Shown: piece by piece, positions 9,462 to 17,888 of the stretch
Numbering within the stretch: position 1 is the stretch's first letter
How the letters are laid out: each line of letters begins with the position of its first letter
Assembly (NCBI GenBank): GCA_027490265.1
Contig: JAIXYL010000083.1
Coordinates: forward strand, 1-47,944
DNA length: 47,944 nt
Direction: 5' to 3'
Origin: Sediminibacterium sp.
GTDB taxonomy: Bacteria; Bacteroidota; Bacteroidia; Chitinophagales; Chitinophagaceae
The notes under the pieces: generated by a model
Database searches by the model: none
Told to the model about the DNA's origin: nothing
Seen by the model: only the letters and a program-made list of their open reading frames with translations
Translations under genes and position numbers: made by a program

Positions 9462-9469
9462 TAAATTTG
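9462..9469 (+). promoter_or_regulatory. -7 box TAAATTTG for the arginine operon leader
   Basis: TAAATTTG matches TAnnTTTG and is followed after 16 bases by the ATG of the leader ORF at 9486. It is the best candidate promoter for the arginine genes. A TTG at 9444-9446 is only 15 bases upstream, shorter than the usual -33 to -7 distance. Confidence 0.5.
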
Positions 9470-9485
9470 CATTTCATTCAACACA

Positions 9486-9593
9486 ATGGTAGCAAGCACT
9501 CCATACAGTTTTATTACTAACAGCTGTTCGTATTTCACCGAGCAGTTGATGATACCATTCATCGTATTACCGAGGCCACGACGTGGTTTCTGA
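9486..9593 (+). CDS. Putative arginine leader peptide (35 residues, ends RPRRGF)
   Basis: A short ORF (ATG 9486, TGA 9591-9593) starts just after a -7 box and ends 102 bases before the first gene of the arginine operon. Its last codons encode LPRPRRGF, with Arg at positions 30, 32 and 33 using AGG, CGA and CGT. The stop codon lies inside the 5' arm of a strong hairpin (9590-9625). Arg codons placed at the end of a small ORF ahead of arginine biosynthesis genes are what ribosome-mediated attenuation predicts: stalling during arginine shortage would change the downstream fold. No homologue is known to me. The opposite strand is also open here (76 codons), so coding is not proven by openness alone. 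Confidence 0.5.
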   Translation: MVASTPYSFITNSCSYFTEQLMIPFIVLPRPRRGF

Positions 9594-9630
9594 TAGGACG
9601 AGCAACTGGCACTTGCCCCTATCAGTGAAA
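9533..9630 (+). promoter_or_regulatory. Structured leader RNA, candidate arginine attenuator
   Basis: The main hairpin pairs CTGATAGG (9590-9597) with CCTATCAG (9618-9625), 8 bp, with an inner GCAA/TTGC stem (9602-9605 with 9613-9616). Two smaller helices lie upstream: GATGA/TCATC around 9548-9563 and CCAC/GTGG at 9576-9586, the latter over the Arg codons. TTTCAC (9533-9538) can pair with GTGAAA (9625-9630) to enclose the whole region. A competing helix pairs CAGTTG (9543-9548, codons 20-21 of the leader ORF) with CAACTG (9603-9608) inside the main hairpin. Mutually exclusive pairings fit an attenuator. No strong U-run follows, so control could be by Rho or at translation. Confidence 0.45.
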
Positions 9631-9695
9631 ATTTCTCCGACAATTGTTTAGGGCTTAACGCCATCATTTATTCTCTTTAATCATATTTATATACG

Positions 9696-10370
9696 TTGGA
9701 ACAGTCAATTATTGTTCGAGTAGCAACTGCTAATGATATTCATTATGCAAGTACCATTACAGATGAAATGGAAGCATCTGCTAAAGCCAGAGGCACTGGT
9801 ATTGCAAAAAGAAGTCCAGATTATGTGGCCGCAAAAATGCAAGAAGGAAAAGCGGTTATTGCAGTTGAACCCAATGGACATTGGGTAGGCTTTTGTTATA
9901 TAGAAGTCTGGGGGCACGAGCAATTTGTGGCCAACAGTGGGCTGATTGTTTCTCCTGCATACAGAAAAAGTGGGGTGGCCAAACAAATCAAACAGACCAT
10001 TTTCAATTTATCCAGACAAAAATATCCAGCAGCCAAAATTTTTGGCTTAACCACTGGATTGGCTGTCATGAAAATCAACAGCGAGCTTGGGTATGAACCA
10101 GTCACATACAGTGAGTTAACCGATGATGAAGAATTTTGGGCTGGCTGTAAAAGCTGTGTGAATTATGATATTTTAATGAGCAAGGATCGAAAGAATTGTA
10201 TGTGTACAGCCATGTTATACGACCCTGCTGATCATTATGAACCTGCTGAAACGATTGCTGATTTTAAACAAAATTCAAAGCTTTATGAACGTTTTATGAA
10301 AGTAAAACAGAGCAAGCTGTTGAAATGGTTTAGAAAAAAGACCTTAAAAAATTATATCGTTCATTTTTAA
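9696..10370 (+). CDS. GNAT-family acyltransferase, candidate acylglutamate synthase of the arginine operon
   Basis: This 224-residue protein has a GNAT fold: substrate-side strands to residue 80, then SGLIVSPAYRKSGVAKQIKQ, the acetyl-CoA-binding segment with the R/Q-x-x-G/A pattern, and FGLTTGLAVMKINSELGYEPV in the C-terminal half. It is the first gene of the arginine operon. The operon has argB, argC, an acylornithine transferase and a deacylase but no classical argA or argJ, so this GNAT is the best candidate for acylating glutamate (inference). A two-cysteine patch (CKSC) and a basic C-terminus are present. The frame has a stop at 9678 and its first start is TTG 9696; the next Met is about 22 codons in and would cut the fold, so I keep TTG. 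Confidence 0.8.
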   Translation: MEQSIIVRVATANDIHYASTITDEMEASAKARGTGIAKRSPDYVAAKMQEGKAVIAVEPNGHWVGFCYIEVWGHEQFVANSGLIVSPAYRKSGVAKQIKQTIFNLSRQKYPAAKIFGLTTGLAVMKINSELGYEPVTYSELTDDEEFWAGCKSCVNYDILMSKDRKNCMCTAMLYDPADHYEPAETIADFKQNSKLYERFMKVKQSKLLKWFRKKTLKNYIVHF

Positions 10371-10381
10371 AAAAGATAGAG

Positions 10382-11584
10382 ATGTCATCGAAAAAATTGG
10401 TGCTTGGGTTTAGTGGTGGATTAGACACAACGTATTGTGCCATTTACTTGTCTCAAGATTTGGGGTATGAAGTGCACAGCGTTATTGTTAATACAGGCGG
10501 CTTTACAATTCAAGAATTAGACCAAATTGAAAAACATGCTTATGCATTAGGCGTAAAAACACATACGACCATTGACGCCGTAAAAAGCTATTACGATCGC
10601 ATCGTTAAATACTTGATTTACGGGAATGTGTTAAAAAACAATACTTACCCTCTAAGTGTGAGTGCGGAAAGATTGAGTCAAGCCATGCATATAGCAGCGC
10701 ACGCTCAAAAAATGCAAGCGGTTGCTGTTGCGCATGGCAGTACAGGTGCTGGCAATGATCAAGTTAGATTCGACATGATTTTTAATATCATGATTCCTGG
10801 TATAGACATCATTACCCCAATACGTGATTTGCAATTAAGTAGAGAAGCTGAAATAGATTATCTCAAAGCCAAAGGGGTTCAAATGAATTTTGAAAAAGCC
10901 GCCTATTCAATTAATAAAGGATTATGGGGTACCAGTGTTGGCGGTAAAGAAACCCTTCATTCAAAAGGACTTTTGCCAGAATCTGCTTGGCCTACACAAG
11001 TAACCAAATCTGCCGCTGAAGAACTGACCATCCATTTTGAAAAAGGTGCCATTACTTGGGTCAATGGGCAACATTTTACGCATCCTGCTCATGCCATTCA
11101 GTTCATACAAGCCATTGCTGCTCCATTTGGGATTGGCAGGGATATTCATGTGGGCGATACCATTATTGGCATTAAAGGAAGAGTTGGTTTTGAAGCAGCA
11201 GCACCAATGGTGATTATCAAAGCCCATCATGCTTTAGAAAAACACGTGCTCACTAAATGGCAATTGAATTGGAAAGACCAGTTGGCGCAATTTTATGGCA
11301 ATTGGTTACATGAAGGTCAAATGATGGATCCAGTAATGCGCGATATTGAAGCATTTCTAGACAATTCACAAGCCCATGTTACAGGAACCGTATTTGTACA
11401 ATTATTGCCCCATCGTTTCCAAATCATCGGCATAGAATCTGAATATGATTTGATGAGCAGCAAATTTGGTAAATATGGTGAAATGAATAATGGATGGACT
11501 GGCACTGATGTAAGAGGATTCTCTAAAATATTTGGCAACCAAACCGCCATTTATCATCATATTAAAAACGCTTCCAATGATTAA
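10382..11584 (+). CDS. argG: Argininosuccinate synthase
   Basis: ArgG joins citrulline and aspartate with ATP to give argininosuccinate. The 400-residue product begins with the ATP-pyrophosphatase P-loop GFSGGLDTTYCAIYL (residues 9-23) and keeps the ArgG features HGSTGAGNDQVRF and SINKGLWGTSVGGKE. Length is normal. ATG 10382 is 11 bases after the GNAT stop, and its end overlaps argC by 8 bases, placing it firmly within the operon. Confidence 0.95.
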   Translation: MSSKKLVLGFSGGLDTTYCAIYLSQDLGYEVHSVIVNTGGFTIQELDQIEKHAYALGVKTHTTIDAVKSYYDRIVKYLIYGNVLKNNTYPLSVSAERLSQAMHIAAHAQKMQAVAVAHGSTGAGNDQVRFDMIFNIMIPGIDIITPIRDLQLSREAEIDYLKAKGVQMNFEKAAYSINKGLWGTSVGGKETLHSKGLLPESAWPTQVTKSAAEELTIHFEKGAITWVNGQHFTHPAHAIQFIQAIAAPFGIGRDIHVGDTIIGIKGRVGFEAAAPMVIIKAHHALEKHVLTKWQLNWKDQLAQFYGNWLHEGQMMDPVMRDIEAFLDNSQAHVTGTVFVQLLPHRFQIIGIESEYDLMSSKFGKYGEMNNGWTGTDVRGFSKIFGNQTAIYHHIKNASND

Positions 11585-12572
11585 AGTAGGCATCGTAGGC
11601 GGCGCTGGGTATACTGGTGGGGAATTAATCCGCTTGTTGTTGCGTCATCCCAACGTCAATATAAATTATGTGCATAGTACCAGCAATGCAGGTCAGCCCT
11701 TATTTAAGGTACACACTGATTTGGTTGGTGACACTGAATTGCATTTTACTGATCAAATCAGCCATGATATTGATGTGTTGTTTTTGTGTATGGGACATGG
11801 TGAAGCCCGTCAATTTTTAGCCAATCAAAAGTTGCCAGCTCAAATAAAATTGATAGACCTGTCTCAAGATTTTCGCTTGCATGATCATGCTTCATTTAAT
11901 GATCGCCGTTTTGTTTATGGACTTCCAGAACTAAATCGATCAATGATTGAGCAAGCCAATTATATTGCTAATCCGGGTTGTTTTGCAACAGCCATTCAGT
12001 TGGGTTTATTGCCCTTGGCCAAAGCAGGCGTATTGGGAGATATTTATACAACAGGCATTACTGGGTCAACAGGCGCAGGTCAAGGTTTAAGCAGTACGTC
12101 ACATTTTAGCTGGAGGGCTAATAATATAGAAGCATACAAATCTTTGACACACCAACATATTCATGAGATCACAGAATCATTGAATCAGTTACAATCAGAT
12201 AATCCTTTAGCAACCAATGGTAATGGCGTAGGATTACACTTTGTACCCTGGCGTGGGGATTTTACCAGAGGTATTTATGTGAGTTCAACTGTTGATATTG
12301 GATTGCCTTATGATGCGTTGGTAGCAATGTATCAAGATTTTTATGCCAATGCAGCATTCACAGTTGTCTCAGACAAAATGATCAATCTTAAACAAGTTGT
12401 GAATACCAACAAGTGCTTGATTCACTTAGAAAAACATGGCAATACAGTAGTAATTCATAGCGCAATTGATAATTTATTAAAAGGGGCGAGTGGACAAGCT
12501 GTACAAAATATGAATCTTGTTTTTGGATTAAATGAAACCGCCGGACTGCAATTAAAAGCCAGTTATTTTTAG
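11577..12572 (+). CDS. argC: N-acyl-gamma-glutamyl-phosphate reductase
   Basis: ArgC reduces the acylglutamyl phosphate made by ArgB to the semialdehyde with NADPH. The 331-residue product starts with the NADP-binding motif GIVGGAGYTGGELIRLL and has the catalytic-cysteine signature ANPGCFAT (Cys135). I chose ATG 11577 (MIKVGIVGG), which overlaps the argG stop; the longer frame from 11532 would add 15 residues ahead of the dinucleotide fold. It is followed after 2 bases by the aminotransferase gene. Confidence 0.95.
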   Translation: MIKVGIVGGAGYTGGELIRLLLRHPNVNINYVHSTSNAGQPLFKVHTDLVGDTELHFTDQISHDIDVLFLCMGHGEARQFLANQKLPAQIKLIDLSQDFRLHDHASFNDRRFVYGLPELNRSMIEQANYIANPGCFATAIQLGLLPLAKAGVLGDIYTTGITGSTGAGQGLSSTSHFSWRANNIEAYKSLTHQHIHEITESLNQLQSDNPLATNGNGVGLHFVPWRGDFTRGIYVSSTVDIGLPYDALVAMYQDFYANAAFTVVSDKMINLKQVVNTNKCLIHLEKHGNTVVIHSAIDNLLKGASGQAVQNMNLVFGLNETAGLQLKASYF

Positions 12573-12574
12573 TT

Positions 12575-13726
12575 ATGAAATTATTTGACGTATATCCTTT
12601 AAACAATTTAACCATCGACAGGGCACAAGGGGCTTATGTTTGGGACAATAATGGCGTTCAATACCTTGATATGTATGGTGGACATGCGGTCATCAGTATT
12701 GGACATACACATCCGCATTGGGTAACATCAATCAAAAAGCAGTTAGATAAAATAGCTTTTTATTCCAATTCAATTGTGATTCCTTTACAACAACAATTGG
12801 CTAATTTATTGGGTGAGTTAAGTGGAAAAACTGATTTTCAATTATTCTTATGTAATAGTGGAGCAGAAGCCAATGAAAATGCATTAAAGTTGGCCTCCTT
12901 TCATACAGGCCGAAAAAAAGTCATCGCTTTTTCTAAGTCCTTTCATGGTAGAACATCTTTAGCTGTTGCTGCAACAGATAATCCATCAATCATTGCACCA
13001 GTTAATGAAACCAGCCATGTCATTTTTCTACCCTTTAATGATGAAGCAGCATTGACAGACTGTTTCAACAATCATGGACAAGATATTGCTGCTGTTATTG
13101 TTGAAGGGATACAAGGTGTTGGCGGCATTATTCCAGCATCACCTGCTTTCTTGCGATTGATTCGCACCCAGTGTGACCAATACGGTGCACTTTATATTGC
13201 AGACAGTGTACAGTGTGGATATGGTAGAACTGGCCAATTTTTTGCACATGATATTGCAGAAGTGAATGCGGATATTTATTCGATGGCCAAAGGCATGGGC
13301 AATGGATTCCCCATAGGCGGCATTTTAATTGCGCCGCATATTCAAGCAAAGCATGGGATGTTGGGGACGACGTTTGGTGGCAATCATTTGGCTTGTGCAG
13401 CTGCTATTGCTGTATTGGAAGTGATACAACAAGAGCAACTGATTAGTATGGCAAAGCAACGTGGTATGTATTTAATGAATCAGTTAAAAGCCATTGATGG
13501 TATTGAAAATGTTAGAGGCAGAGGCTTAATGATTGGATTTGATACACCCGATTCAATGAAAGGATTGAAAAAATTATTACTAGAGAAGTACAATATTTTT
13601 ACTGGAGAAGCCAAACCCAACGTCATCAGATTACTCCCTTCTCTGGCTTTATCCCGTAAACAAGCCGATGAGTTTTTAGACGCTTTAAAAGAAGCTATTT
13701 CTGATATTCAAAACAATACCGCATAA
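12575..13726 (+). CDS. argD: Acylornithine aminotransferase (class III, ArgD type)
   Basis: This PLP enzyme converts acylglutamate semialdehyde to acylornithine with glutamate as donor. The 383-residue product shows NSGAEANENALKLA, the phosphate-binding FHGRTSLAVAAT, IADSVQCGYGRTG, and the PLP lysine in SMAKGMGNG (Lys239). In most ArgD proteins the third motif reads DEVQ; here it is DSVQ, keeping the Asp that contacts the PLP ring nitrogen. Whether it acts on acetyl or succinyl derivatives cannot be read directly. It is separated by 2 bases from both neighbours. Confidence 0.9.
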   Translation: MKLFDVYPLNNLTIDRAQGAYVWDNNGVQYLDMYGGHAVISIGHTHPHWVTSIKKQLDKIAFYSNSIVIPLQQQLANLLGELSGKTDFQLFLCNSGAEANENALKLASFHTGRKKVIAFSKSFHGRTSLAVAATDNPSIIAPVNETSHVIFLPFNDEAALTDCFNNHGQDIAAVIVEGIQGVGGIIPASPAFLRLIRTQCDQYGALYIADSVQCGYGRTGQFFAHDIAEVNADIYSMAKGMGNGFPIGGILIAPHIQAKHGMLGTTFGGNHLACAAAIAVLEVIQQEQLISMAKQRGMYLMNQLKAIDGIENVRGRGLMIGFDTPDSMKGLKKLLLEKYNIFTGEAKPNVIRLLPSLALSRKQADEFLDALKEAISDIQNNTA

Positions 13727-13728
13727 AC

Positions 13729-14706
13729 ATGAACCATTTTGTTTCCGCAAATGATGTAAACAGTATTCAACTACTGGTGAATCAGGCTTTAGCCTATAAA
13801 AGCAATCCTTTTGCAGATGCACAATTAGGCAAGGGTAAACGTATTGGTTTATTGTTTTTAAACCCAAGTTTAAGAACCAGGTTGAGTACACAAGTAGCTG
13901 CTTCAAATTTGGGTATGGAAGCCATTGTGTTTAATGTAGACAAAGAAGGTTGGGCACTCGAGTTTGAAGAAGGGGTGATCATGAATGGCAACACAGTAGA
14001 ACATATTAAGGACGCTGCTCCAGTATTAGGACAGTATTTTGATATATTGGCCATTAGAACTTTTCCTTCCTTAAAAAATAAAGATGTTGATTACAGTGAA
14101 CAGTTGATGCACCAATTTATCAAATATGCTGGTGTACCAATCGTAAGTTTGGAAAGTGCTACTTTACATCCACTCCAATCTTTAACAGATATTATTACCA
14201 TTCAAGAATCATTGTTGGCGAATCCAATTCAACATAAAAAACCTAAAGTGGTTTTAACCTGGGCGCCGCATATTAAACCTTTGCCACAATGTGTGGCCAA
14301 TAGTTTTGCGCAATGGGTTAATGCATGGGGTGAAGCAGACTTTGTGGTGACACATCCAAAGGGATACGAGTTATCTGAGACATACACTAAAGGCGCAACC
14401 ATTCAATATGACCAGGCTGCCGCATTGGAAAATGCCGACTTTGTTTATGTAAAAAATTGGAGCAGTTTTCATGCATATGGGCAAATGTTAAGCCATGATG
14501 AGGCTTGGATGTTGACCCAACAAACAATGATGCAGACCAACCAAGCCAAACTGATGCATTGTTTGCCTGTGAGAAGAAATGTAGAATTGAGTGATGAATT
14601 ATTAGATGGTTCCAATAGTTTGGTGACTCGCCAAGCAGGTAACAGAGTATGGGCTGCACAAGCCGTATTGGCTAATATTTTACATCAACAAAAACAGTTG
14701 ATATGA
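13729..14706 (+). CDS. N-acylornithine carbamoyltransferase (ArgF' type)
   Basis: This 325-residue enzyme carbamoylates acylornithine rather than free ornithine. It has the carbamoyl-phosphate motif SLRTRLSTQ (residues 47-55), HPLQSLTD, and MHCLPVRRN near the C-terminus, as in the acetyl- and succinylornithine enzymes. As I remember the work on Bacteroides fragilis and Xanthomonas, one residue sets acyl choice: Pro90 for succinyl, Glu92 for acetyl. The aligned residue here, in GNTVEH, is Val90, so the acyl group is undetermined. The Glu-rich FEEGVIMNG region precedes it. ATG overlap (ATGA at 14703) couples it to argB. Confidence 0.9.
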   Translation: MNHFVSANDVNSIQLLVNQALAYKSNPFADAQLGKGKRIGLLFLNPSLRTRLSTQVAASNLGMEAIVFNVDKEGWALEFEEGVIMNGNTVEHIKDAAPVLGQYFDILAIRTFPSLKNKDVDYSEQLMHQFIKYAGVPIVSLESATLHPLQSLTDIITIQESLLANPIQHKKPKVVLTWAPHIKPLPQCVANSFAQWVNAWGEADFVVTHPKGYELSETYTKGATIQYDQAAALENADFVYVKNWSSFHAYGQMLSHDEAWMLTQQTMMQTNQAKLMHCLPVRRNVELSDELLDGSNSLVTRQAGNRVWAAQAVLANILHQQKQLI

Positions 14707-15497
14707 CTACCTTAACTGTGGTTAAAATTGGCGGAAATATTGTAGATGATGCAGCTGCATTAACGCAGTTTCTTGCAGATTTTGCTGCCATTAAATCGGC
14801 TAAAATTTTGGTCCATGGTGGAGGGAAGCTGGCTACCCAATTAGCCAATACCATGGGCGTTCAACAGCAAATGGTGGATGGTAGAAGAATCACGGATACA
14901 GAAACACTGAAAATTGTGACCATGGTATATGCCGGCTTAATCAATAAAACGATTGTAGCGCAGTTGCAATCGCTTCAAGCCAATGCCATTGGACTAACTG
15001 GTGCTGATGCCAATCTGATTAGTGCCTATCAACGACGGGTAACACCTGAGCAGCCAATTCAATATGGATTAGTAGGGGACGTTAATGCTGTGAACAGTCA
15101 TTTTATCAATACTTTATTGCAACAACAATTGGTGCCAGTGATTGCTCCAATTACCCACAATGGGGAAGGGCAATTGCTCAACACCAATGCTGACACAATC
15201 GCTCAATCTATTGCTACTGCCATGAGCACATTGTATGAAACCGTTTTAATTTATTCATTTGAGAAAAAAGGGGTGTTATTAGACGTTAATGATGAAACCT
15301 CCGTTATTCCTTTGATACAGCCAACCTATTATCAAACCTTGAAACAAAACCAACAAATTTTTGCGGGGATGATCCCCAAATTGGATAATGCATTTAGTGC
15401 AATTGAGAACGGGGTTAAAAAAGTCATTATAGGAAACGCTTTAGAAATGCATCAATTAATTTCAGGACAATCAGGAACCACTATTCAGTATGAGTGA
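14703..15497 (+). CDS. argB: N-acylglutamate kinase
   Basis: ArgB phosphorylates the gamma-carboxyl of acylglutamate. The 264-residue amino-acid-kinase product begins TVVKIGGNIVDD with the ATP-binding lysine, then LVHGGGKLATQLA, LTGADANLI and NTNADTIAQSIA, and ends with the GMIPKLDNAFSAIENGV segment. Length and motifs are normal for the family. The start overlaps the carbamoyltransferase stop by 4 bases and the end overlaps the next gene by 8 bases. Confidence 0.95.
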   Translation: MTTLTVVKIGGNIVDDAAALTQFLADFAAIKSAKILVHGGGKLATQLANTMGVQQQMVDGRRITDTETLKIVTMVYAGLINKTIVAQLQSLQANAIGLTGADANLISAYQRRVTPEQPIQYGLVGDVNAVNSHFINTLLQQQLVPVIAPITHNGEGQLLNTNADTIAQSIATAMSTLYETVLIYSFEKKGVLLDVNDETSVIPLIQPTYYQTLKQNQQIFAGMIPKLDNAFSAIENGVKKVIIGNALEMHQLISGQSGTTIQYE

Positions 15498-16557
15498 TTT
15501 TACAAAACTATATCATGATGCAGTTCAATTATTAAAGGAACTGATTGCCATTCCTTCATTTAGCAGAGAAGAGGACTTAACTGCTGCTTGCATTGGTGCT
15601 TTTTTTCAAAAACAGGCCATTCCATTTAATCAATACAAAAACAATATTTGGGCAACCAATCAATATTTTGATGCCAGCAAACCCACTATATTATTGAATT
15701 CGCATCATGATACGGTTAAACCTAACACCGGGTATCAATTAAATCCATTTGAACCAATCATTGAATCCAATAAATTGTTTGGTTTGGGAAGTAATGATGC
15801 TGGGGGCCCACTTGTATCCCTAATTGCGTGTTTTGTGCATTATTATCCACAGTTTGACTTGCCATATAATCTGATCATTGCAGTCACTGCTGAAGAAGAA
15901 ATATCAGGTAAAAATGGGGTGGAGGCTTTGATCCCCTTATTGCCAACAATTGATTTTGCCATTGTGGGTGAACCTACCTTATGTCAATTGGCTATTGCTG
16001 AAAGAGGCTTATTGGTGATTGATGCAAGTGCCAAAGGGATAGCTGGGCATGCGGCCAGAAATGAAGGGGACAATGCTTTGTATAAAGCCATTAAAGATAT
16101 TGGGTGGATTCAAACCTATCAGTTTGACAAAGTAAGTGATTTGTTAGGCCCTGTGAAGATGACGGTTACTGCGATGTCTACCCCTAATCAACAACACAAT
16201 ATTGTGCCAGCTTCAGCTGATTATATCATTGATATTCGCGTCAATGAATTGTATCAATTTGATGAAATTTTGGATTTGCTGCGGGCGCATTTATCTGCCA
16301 ACATTCAACCTAGGAGTACCAGACTTAAATCTACGCTGATTGCGAAGGACCATCCAATTGTATTGGCTGGAATATCATTGGGCAGTACTTGCTATGGCAG
16401 TCCTACTACGAGTGATAAAGCTTTGATGCCTTTTCCAGCGTTAAAAGTTGGCCCTGGGGACAGTGCCAGAAGTCATACGGCCGATGAGTTTATTTATTTA
16501 TCTGAGATTGAAGAAGGCATTCATTTTTATATTCACCTTTTAAAAGCTGTTCAATGA
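15490..16557 (+). CDS. argE: M20-family deacylase, probable N-acyl-citrulline/ornithine deacetylase
   Basis: A 355-residue metallopeptidase-family hydrolase with the dinuclear zinc pattern: SHHDTVKP (first His and bridging Asp), GSNDAGGPLV, TAEEEISG (catalytic Glu pair) and VGEPT, plus a dimerisation domain around ERGLLVIDASAKGIAGHAARNEG. In this operon, whose carbamoyltransferase takes acylornithine, the natural substrate is acylcitrulline rather than acetylornithine (inference from pathway order). It overlaps argB by 8 bases and argH by 4. Confidence 0.9.
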   Translation: MSDFTKLYHDAVQLLKELIAIPSFSREEDLTAACIGAFFQKQAIPFNQYKNNIWATNQYFDASKPTILLNSHHDTVKPNTGYQLNPFEPIIESNKLFGLGSNDAGGPLVSLIACFVHYYPQFDLPYNLIIAVTAEEEISGKNGVEALIPLLPTIDFAIVGEPTLCQLAIAERGLLVIDASAKGIAGHAARNEGDNALYKAIKDIGWIQTYQFDKVSDLLGPVKMTVTAMSTPNQQHNIVPASADYIIDIRVNELYQFDEILDLLRAHLSANIQPRSTRLKSTLIAKDHPIVLAGISLGSTCYGSPTTSDKALMPFPALKVGPGDSARSHTADEFIYLSEIEEGIHFYIHLLKAVQ

Positions 16558-17888
16558 AACTATGGAGTAAGCAAAATACCAGTACCACTCAATTAGTGGA
16601 GCAGTTTACCGTTGGGAAAGACAAGGATTTCGATCAATTATTGGCACCCTTTGATGTATTGGGATCCATTGCACATGTGAAAATGTTGGCTTCTATTGGT
16701 TTGATTAGTGCTGCTGAATTGCAAGCGTTGGTTAAAGAATTGCAAGCCATTTATCAGATAGTTTCTGCTCCAACATTTGTAATTCCTGATGGTGTTGAAG
16801 ACATTCATTCTTATGTTGAGTTTTTGCTCACTAAAAACTTGGGCGAGATGGGCAAGAAAATTCACAGCGCCCGAAGTAGGAACGATCAGGTTTTAGTAGA
16901 CATCAAATTATATTTGCGCGCTGCCATTCAAACAGTTGTTGAAAGTACTTCCAGATTATTTGAATTATTACAAGCACAGAGTGAAAAACATCAATCCGTT
17001 CTGTTGCCAGGCTATACCCATTTACAATTGGCCATGCCTTCTTCATTTGGTCTTTGGTTCGGCGCTTATGCTGAAAGCTTGGTAGATGATTTGATCACCC
17101 TTGAAGCAGCATACCAAATTGTCAATAAGAATCCATTGGGTTCTGCAGCTGGCTATGGTTCTTCTTTCCCCATCAACAGACAAATGACTACTGAGTTGCT
17201 GGGCTTTGACACAATGCATGTAAATGTGGTTTATGCGCAAATGGGCAGGGGTAAAACGGAAAGAATTGTTGCAGCGGCACTGGCCAATATTGCCGATACA
17301 TTATCTAGGTTGAGTATGGATGCTTGTTTGTATTTGAATCAAAATTTTGCTTTTATCAGTTTTCCTGCTGATTTAACTACCGGCTCTAGCATTATGCCGC
17401 ATAAAAAAAATCCAGATGTTTTTGAGTTAACCAGAGCTTATTGCAATCGAATTAAAGCACTTCCCAACGAAATTATTGTAATGACTGCTAATCTGCCTTC
17501 TGGATATCATCGTGATTTGCAATTACTAAAAGAACATTTATTCCCCGCATTTAGCGAACTGAATCATTGTTTGAATATGATGCACCTAATGCTTAGCCAT
17601 ATTCAGATTAATCCAACAATTGTTGATGACCTTAAATACCAATATATGTTTAGTGTTGAAGAAGTCAACAAATTGGTATTGCAAGGCCTGCCTTTCCGAG
17701 ATGCGTATCAACAAGTGGGCAATGCCATTGAAAATGGTCAGTTTACTTATTCAACTCAACTTAACCATCAACACGAAGGCAGTATGGGCAATCTTTGCAA
17801 TGCGCAAATTAAAATGATGATGGATACCGTTACCGCAAGATTTCAATTTAACAAAGCCAGTCATGCGATTGATGCACTTTTAACTTAA
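16554..17888 (+). CDS. argH: Argininosuccinate lyase
   Basis: ArgH splits argininosuccinate to arginine and fumarate, the last step. The 444-residue product has the fumarase/aspartase-superfamily signature GSSIMPHKKNPD (about residue 277), KIHSARSRNDQV and LPGYTHLQ. It begins at ATG 16554 overlapping argE and is the last arginine gene before the FKBP gene. Length is normal. Confidence 0.95.
   Translation: MKLWSKQNTSTTQLVEQFTVGKDKDFDQLLAPFDVLGSIAHVKMLASIGLISAAELQALVKELQAIYQIVSAPTFVIPDGVEDIHSYVEFLLTKNLGEMGKKIHSARSRNDQVLVDIKLYLRAAIQTVVESTSRLFELLQAQSEKHQSVLLPGYTHLQLAMPSSFGLWFGAYAESLVDDLITLEAAYQIVNKNPLGSAAGYGSSFPINRQMTTELLGFDTMHVNVVYAQMGRGKTERIVAAALANIADTLSRLSMDACLYLNQNFAFISFPADLTTGSSIMPHKKNPDVFELTRAYCNRIKALPNEIIVMTANLPSGYHRDLQLLKEHLFPAFSELNHCLNMMHLMLSHIQINPTIVDDLKYQYMFSVEEVNKLVLQGLPFRDAYQQVGNAIENGQFTYSTQLNHQHEGSMGNLCNAQIKMMMDTVTARFQFNKASHAIDALLT

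Follow-up and report, generated by a model that had tools for sequence, protein, structure and literature searches.

Whether the supply of arginine is gauged by a translating ribosome is the question raised by a short open reading frame (ORF) that ends in a cluster of Arg codons and lies just ahead of an arginine operon in G000, a 2.87 Mb genome of Sediminibacterium type (Chitinophagaceae). The window, i.e. the whole stretch of DNA that was analysed, is 47,944 nucleotides long. As developed in the following, the leader found there is very probably an arginine-specific, ribosome-mediated attenuator. Sequence comparison makes it very probable that the ribosome gauges amino-acid supply by reading the leader Arg codons, and folding models make it likely that transcription is attenuated through the competition of a hairpin, H1 (the 2:3 pair), with a 3:4 pair.

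The leader and its surroundings

The features of the locus are the following.

9462–9469, forward strand: putative −7 promoter box of the TAnnTTTG type, TAAATTTG, by motif match
9486–9593, forward strand: leader peptide ORF, 35 codons plus UGA, ending LPRPRRGF, from the ORF and the conservation of its frame
9573–9584, forward strand: control codons AGG-CCA-CGA-CGT, with Arg at −6, −4 and −3 from the stop
9590–9625, forward strand: H1 hairpin, proposed 2:3 antiterminator; outer stem 9590–9597/9618–9625, the 5′ arm of which contains the UGA
9602–9605/9613–9616, forward strand: inner stem of H1, from the alignment model
9606–9619, forward strand: region 3, CTGGCACTTGCCCC, H1 loop and start of the 3′ arm, complementary to region 4
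9651–9663, forward strand: region 4, GGGCTTAACGCCA, then U-rich TCATTTATTCTCTTT, proposed 3′ strand of a predicted terminator
9696–17888, forward strand: arginine operon of eight genes, from family profile matches and context

The original prediction had described a TAnnTTTG box at 9462, a 35-codon ORF ending LPRPRRGF, three Arg codons (AGG, CGA and CGT) among its last six sense codons, a stop within the 5′ arm of an 8-bp hairpin and an eight-gene arginine operon starting 102 bases downstream, and each of these was found in its place. The full translation of the leader is MVASTPYSFITNSCSYFTEQLMIPFIVLPRPRRGF, and its Arg codons lie at 9573–9575 (AGG), 9579–9581 (CGA) and 9582–9584 (CGT). The UGA (9591–9593) is contained in CTGATAGG (9590–9597), which forms eight base pairs with CCTATCAG (9618–9625). 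The genes of the operon, matched by family profiles, follow the order argA-like GNAT, argG, argC, argD, argF', argB, argE-like and argH, the GNAT (argA-like) and ArgE assignments combining weak family scores with gene context; the argA-like gene begins with TTG at 9696, 102 bases past the leader stop.

The −33 spacing at the window promoter box is non-canonical. Among 119 leaders with the Sediminibacterium-type element, TAnnTTT[GA] is present no more than 90 nt upstream in 113 (21 after shuffling), and the strict TAnnTTTG form in 29 (10 after shuffling). The segment from 9470 to 9720 folds better than all 200 of its 200 shuffles (z −2.6), and no Rfam 15 family, be it a riboswitch or a T-box, reached the gathering score anywhere in the window.

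Conservation within the genus

An argA-like gene was found in 53 of 61 genomes of the same genus, and the 36-base H1 element, in one copy each, in 50 of the 61 and in none of 39 genomes of other families; three mismatches were allowed in this search and none was seen in the 50 genus matches. Eleven genus genomes lack the element: eight have no argA match, two (G024 and G050) have argA at a contig end, and the last is G004. In the latter (locus L038/L331, G004:C332), argA is present without H1 and without the second Arg codon, and the leader frame runs on; H1 has either been lost in nature here or collapsed when the genome was assembled.

Together with the original prediction, a comparison of related genomes had been proposed for the conservation of the ORF, its terminal Arg codons and the hairpin. 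In a wide set of 125 sites (124 readable), delimited by the element and not by genus among the matches listed, and including members from other genera (L124, L134 and L140), Arg is found at codons −4 and −3 in 124 of 124 cases, and the leader frame and the two other frames are broken in 0, 100 and 106 cases, respectively. Since this set reaches beyond the genus, the frame test was repeated on genus genomes only. Here, too, both the frame and the terminal Arg codons are kept: all 50 genomes with the element have Arg at −4 and −3 and a leader frame free of stops over its last 28 codons, the other frames being broken in 40 and 41 of them. Changes in the Arg codons are synonymous (CGT/CGC, and in L111 AGA in place of CGA), and those in the glycine codon affect the third base, except in L041, which has RREF. 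The leader may start with ATG, GTG or TTG; its N-terminus is poorly conserved and its length variable, with the frame kept. A leader ending in RR was found upstream of argA in 50 of 51 genus regions, against a shuffled mean of 2.4 and maximum of 6, which is far beyond chance.

The Sediminibacterium-type element gave no match in the viral contigs searched; the matches listed for it include the culturable Sediminibacterium salmoneum and S. goheungense. A contig titled as a Comamonas MAG (L166) carries it, probably as the result of a binning error.

Conservation of H1 at the RNA level

The 5′ arm of H1 was present in 24 non-genus sequences, two of which (L277 and L283) have no 3′ arm and were dropped before alignment; the remaining 22 were aligned with 20 Sediminibacterium-type rows, chosen at less than 90% identity, to give 42 sequences, 41 of them distinct. 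In this alignment 95.7% of the cells pair, and the covariation score of 0.220 (0.105 when shuffled) was reached in none of 500 shuffles. Neither the pairs changed on both sides (4 vs 3.8) nor the further pair types (9 vs 8.7) exceed the shuffles; two of five covariation measures are at shuffle level, and the shuffles ignore relatedness. Since the search expression for H1 fixes seven of the eight outer pairs, evidence of covariation can come only from the fifth pair and the inner stem. Of 239 sites, 164 have U-A as the fifth outer pair, 64 have C-G, 11 have U-G and none has C-A; in the 215 sites of length 38, the first inner pair is G-C in 173, A-U in 30 and unpaired in 7, and the third is A-U in 133, C-G in 76 and unpaired in 4. 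On the evidence of these comparisons H1 is a conserved RNA hairpin, and its stem, the conservation of which was also part of the proposed comparison, is kept outside the genus by paired changes.

For the window H1 alone, the minimum free energy is −12.1 kcal/mol, with the outer stem formed and an inner pairing unlike that of the alignment model. Searched with a covariance model of H1, 57 of the 396 genomes from the order gave a match; they are all Chitinophagaceae and fall in 18 of 164 genera, with strict filters by which weak matches may be lost. The loops of H1 differ between genera.

Switch and output

With the 5′ arm of H1 shielded, CTGGCACTTGCCCC is predicted to pair with GGGCTTAACGCCA before the U-rich tract of the window at −13.6 kcal/mol, the predicted duplex of regions 3 and 4 having −13.4 kcal/mol, and H1 and the 3:4 fold use the same strand, namely region 3. 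For 35 representatives with a loop of the Sediminibacterium type, 5 of 200 column permutations equalled or bettered the 3:4 pairing, whereas 86 of 200 did so in a set of 22 other sequences, a result that is not significant. Region 3 was taken here as the loop plus five constant arm bases, one of which differs in the C-G types. Over 52 representatives, complementarity of the loop to downstream sequence gave a combined p of 2e-5 and plain downstream hairpins one of 0.04, both values being rough because the representatives are not independent and relatedness is untreated. Swapping of loops gave p = 0.07 among the 22 others and no difference in the Sediminibacterium type (−10.08 vs −10.02).

Three further pairings were considered. 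In other genera the H1 loop (ACCA) may form a kissing pair with a GGATTGGTNATCC hairpin further downstream, which was attractive on inspection by eye but reached only p = 0.07 on loop swapping; a T-box-like pairing of the loop UGGC with tRNA ends was dropped, as the loop is unconserved outside the genus; and a local 1:2 hairpin over the Arg codons (CCAC-GAC-GTGG) is present in the window and absent from some genus sequences.

A search for a strong intrinsic terminator shared across the genus found none; hairpins before U-tracts near H1 are only modestly stronger than shuffled ones (−2.0 vs −0.8), and in the window the U-tract is interrupted and the 3:4 terminator hairpin weak. This speaks in favour of a variant in which ribosomes stalled on, or released from, the same codon-sensing leader would control Rho-dependent termination or else the translation of the argA-like gene, which begins at a TTG start. 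The same variant would agree with the conservation of that start, kept in all 51 aligned genus sequences (L011, at a contig end, being left out of the alignment) and mostly GTG or TTG as judged by eye, with many GTG, in class-1 relatives of other genera, as well as with the precedent of Salmonella orf34-speF, which acts through Rho, unmasking of the ribosome-binding site (RBS) and RNase G (excerpt of PMC6386406). Against it stand the U-rich tracts and complements of region 4 that many sequences have in the interval from H1 to the gene, and the clearer terminator-like hairpins of some relatives (L053 and L258). Such an output deserves consideration but is the less likely one. Transcription attenuation by the 2:3 and 3:4 pairs is, instead, the output adopted in the following.

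Leaders in the family and the order

Beyond the genus, leaders were sought as short ORFs ending 60–230 bases before an argA-like gene with RR in their last eight codons. Such leaders are present in 54 of 62 upstream regions of non-Sediminibacterium Chitinophagaceae (shuffled mean 3.0, maximum 8), in 11 of 17 from other families (mean 0.6, maximum 3) and in 3 of 8 second argA copies (mean 0.6, maximum 3), L211–L217 (duplicates or second copies) being omitted from the counts and L268, with a run of N, being scored as a miss. They are missing from 8 of the 62 family regions, five of which still have H1 and at least one Arg, and from 6 of the 17 other-family regions. When the leaders are compared by group (the short L227 being left out), their C-termini fall into RRG[FC], RRRPxx, RRPRI, VRR, and SSRR or ASRR types, Arg alone being common to all.

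A second group in the Chitinophagaceae ends in RRPRI or alike, with the stop in a TGATA or TAATA context and without the class-1 hairpin pattern (L228, L232, L234, L235, L237, L238, L241, L242, L244, L245, L247, L252, L253, L255 and others), and a third one (L260, L267, L269, L270 and others) ends in VRR with CGACGTTGATA. In other families of the order, L053 has the leader MKIASNIFFHTSRSYRRRR and what appears to be a textbook attenuator with 1:2, 2:3 and 3:4 pairs (CAGGC:GCCTG, CTGCATA:TATGCAG and GACTAC:GTAGTC, then GTTTTT). L054 and L288, from a family of the order other than the Chitinophagaceae, have a single-Arg leader, NFECRP, and a terminator-like hairpin with a U-tract before the argA-like gene. 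In L218, L219, L222 and L225, likewise from outside the Chitinophagaceae and from one family of the order, leaders end in RRP with GGGC or GGGGC after the stop, possibly another type of attenuator.

Exchange of arginine for proline codons

A family-wide pattern search with H1 alone, and therefore blind to the leader codons, gave 136 places in 131 of 394 genomes, and its backward control gave none among the matches listed. An argA-like gene follows in 128 of these places and proC in three; one is cut by a contig end and four are due to chance. All gathered loci together contain 243 distinct H1 sites (L199, with fewer than 60 bases upstream, being left out), 234 of which precede an argA-like gene. 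All 234 of the latter leaders have Arg within their last eight codons, 231 have at least two Arg and 216 have RR. Neither gene is found at six of the 243 sites, two of which are too short to judge and have RRGC leaders, the other four being chance matches at three places.

The three sites before proC are L329 (G454:C44), L388 (G817) and L389 (G883). That of G454, with the leader MTGYNFHNASFVPCPPPGC, was a second, weak match of the covariance model, and the proC assignment has NCBIfam TIGR00112 above its cut-off. The leaders end in FVPCPPPGC (G454 and G883) or FPSPAPGC (G817), with no Arg and three to four Pro in the last eight codons, and their Pro codons differ at third bases (CCA/CCT). All three genomes also carry an Arg leader ending SRRGC before argA. 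The proC-linked copies are confined to one genus (three of nine g100 genomes), and the three cases, being species of one genus, may count as one event. As Pro is common in argA leaders as well (190 of 234 have one or more, 7 have three and none has four), the loss of Arg in the proC leaders tells more than the gain of Pro.

The exchange of Pro for Arg before proC favours the sensing of charged tRNA by the ribosome. Together with the conservation of the Arg codons, it supports the original proposal of attenuation by arginyl-tRNA supply and makes codon sensing the best reading; termination of transcription would be the output. There is good reason to think that the Chitinophagaceae use a modular attenuator cassette, made of a fixed hairpin with the stop in its arm and of exchangeable control codons, which would sense arginine ahead of the argA-led operon, a second copy having been recoded to proline before proC.

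Two other forms of arginine sensing have to be weighed at this point. In the fungal AAP and in SpeFL, the target of free arginine is the nascent peptide while it is still inside the ribosome tunnel. The leader could likewise be an arrest peptide, with free arginine acting on the nascent RRGF chain, as the near-fixation of a C-terminal RRG[FC] in the Sediminibacterium-type set might indicate; this is, however, very improbable given the range of C-termini with Arg alone in common (RRGF, RRRPEC, RRPRI, VRR and SYRRRR), the poor conservation of the region ahead of the C-terminal end and the replacement of Arg by Pro before proC. Alternatively, H1 might be an arginine-binding aptamer (riboswitch), with the RRG[F/C] end as a by-product of the conserved RNA. 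The near-invariance of the H1 letters, unpaired ones included, would agree with this and also counts against the attenuator, because letters such as ACGA exceed the needs of a plain antiterminator. An aptamer is hardly credible in view of the frame kept open upstream of H1, the variation of the H1 loops between genera, the Arg leaders without this H1 in other Chitinophagaceae groups and the occurrence of H1 with Pro codons before proC, which disfavours an arginine aptamer in particular.

Arginine repressor and arginine tRNAs

The C-terminal domain of ArgR (PF02863) was found in none of 40 genomes (25 of the genus, G000 included, and 15 of other families of the order), with a match in Bacteroides ihuae as positive control. 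In a sample of the phylum, by which alone the other Chitinophagaceae genera are covered for ArgR, 92 of 247 genomes match; the only one of this order, G133, has a partial match, exactly at the cut-off and containing a stop. The near-palindromic form of H1 and its closeness to the promoter might suggest an operator in the DNA, bound by ArgR or another repressor. This can practically be dismissed in view of the ArgR result in the genomes searched and of the paired changes in the stem and the position of H1, which is fixed relative to the reading frame.

The genome has 26 tRNA matches, including tRNA-Arg with anticodons TCT, CCT and ACG. Of the 634 Arg codons at the ends of leaders, 589 are of the CGN type vs 245 of 506 in 29 ORFs of the window, where AGA is the commonest Arg codon, a bias by which the leader would chiefly sample the ACG tRNA. 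This tRNA presumably carries inosine here and reads CGA slowly.

Proposed mechanism

The comparisons show a leader whose frame, Arg codons, H1 and linkage to the operon are kept, with Pro in the place of Arg before proC, and they suggest the following sequence of events. Transcription would start just before 9486, and the leader ORF would be translated by a ribosome moving behind RNA polymerase. If arginyl-tRNA is scarce, mainly the ACG tRNA that reads CGA, CGT and CGC, this ribosome would wait while CGA or CGT occupies the A site. The front edge of a ribosome reaches about 13 nt ahead, and with CGA in the A site it would end at the first base of the stop codon, leaving GATAGG free. The presence of Arg at codon −4 in 217 of 234 argA leaders fits this geometry. 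Directly ahead of the stalled ribosome H1 (2:3) would fold and keep region 3 from region 4, so that polymerase would continue and the operon would be expressed. When arginine is ample, the ribosome would reach the UGA and cover the 5′ arm of H1; region 3 could then pair with region 4 beside the U-rich tract, and transcription would stop. In such a scheme translation of the leader, stalling of the ribosome and the switch between the 2:3 and 3:4 pairs would make transcription the controlled step, with shortage of arginine raising expression.

Relation to known systems

The accounts that follow are drawn from excerpts of the papers cited. In other species, arginine genes are under T-box control, and in Actinobacteria no conserved RNA structure was found before arginine operons (PMC1262725). 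Salmonella orf34-speF has a leader of 34 codons, in which arginine is sensed by pausing of the ribosome at two adjacent Arg codons; the system differs from the present one in that an ornithine decarboxylase gene is controlled, in the mode of output described above and in the position of the Arg codons, at 12–13 and not at the end (PMC6386406). Rare Arg codons in the leader peptide rbfL of Staphylococcus aureus sense arginine supply, but there pausing blocks translation of a biofilm regulator, so that shortage lowers expression, and occlusion of the RBS takes the place of attenuator hairpins (PMC13009471). For Pseudomonas aeruginosa carA a leader peptide is reported, with control of transcription by arginine and of pyrimidine response possibly by attenuation (PMC4997734).

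As to the phylum, a study of Flavobacterium psychrophilum reports strong indications that amino-acid operons are attenuated by leader peptides (PMC9723704), and one of Bacteroides thetaiotaomicron reports leader-like short ORFs (PMC7366714). In both of these Bacteroidota, as here, leader peptides were suspected, in their case from structured or long 5′ UTRs; unlike the present case, the excerpts name neither an arginine operon nor the sequence or structure of a leader. The authors of PMC2965389 stated in 2010 that, to their knowledge, Proteobacteria and Actinobacteria were the only groups with demonstrated leader-peptide systems, except for ermC, and then added a Firmicutes case of their own; the main text of that paper contains no word beginning with Bacteroid or arginine. 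The excerpts of PMC4833913 and PMC8632094 have nothing on an arginine operon leader. An arginine attenuator in Bacteroidota was not found in the literature searched, most subscription papers being outside the reach of the search.

In this group of Bacteroidota, where the genomes searched gave no ArgR, arginine synthesis appears to be controlled mainly by leader-peptide attenuation. The exchange of Pro for Arg amounts to a natural experiment on what the leader reads, and suggests a compact amino-acid sensor that can be re-coded. The control of Bacteroidota amino-acid operons through nascent RNA becomes directly testable.

Leader-peptide attenuation is best known from Proteobacteria and for a handful of amino acids, the classical cases being the trp, his, leu, thr, ilv and phe attenuators. 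The leader described here departs from them in its arginine signal, its Chitinophagaceae host, the stop placed inside a near-invariant hairpin and the weak terminator, and resembles them in that a biosynthetic operon is preceded by a short ORF containing codons for its end product; the alternative RNA hairpins of the classical cases are here a prediction.
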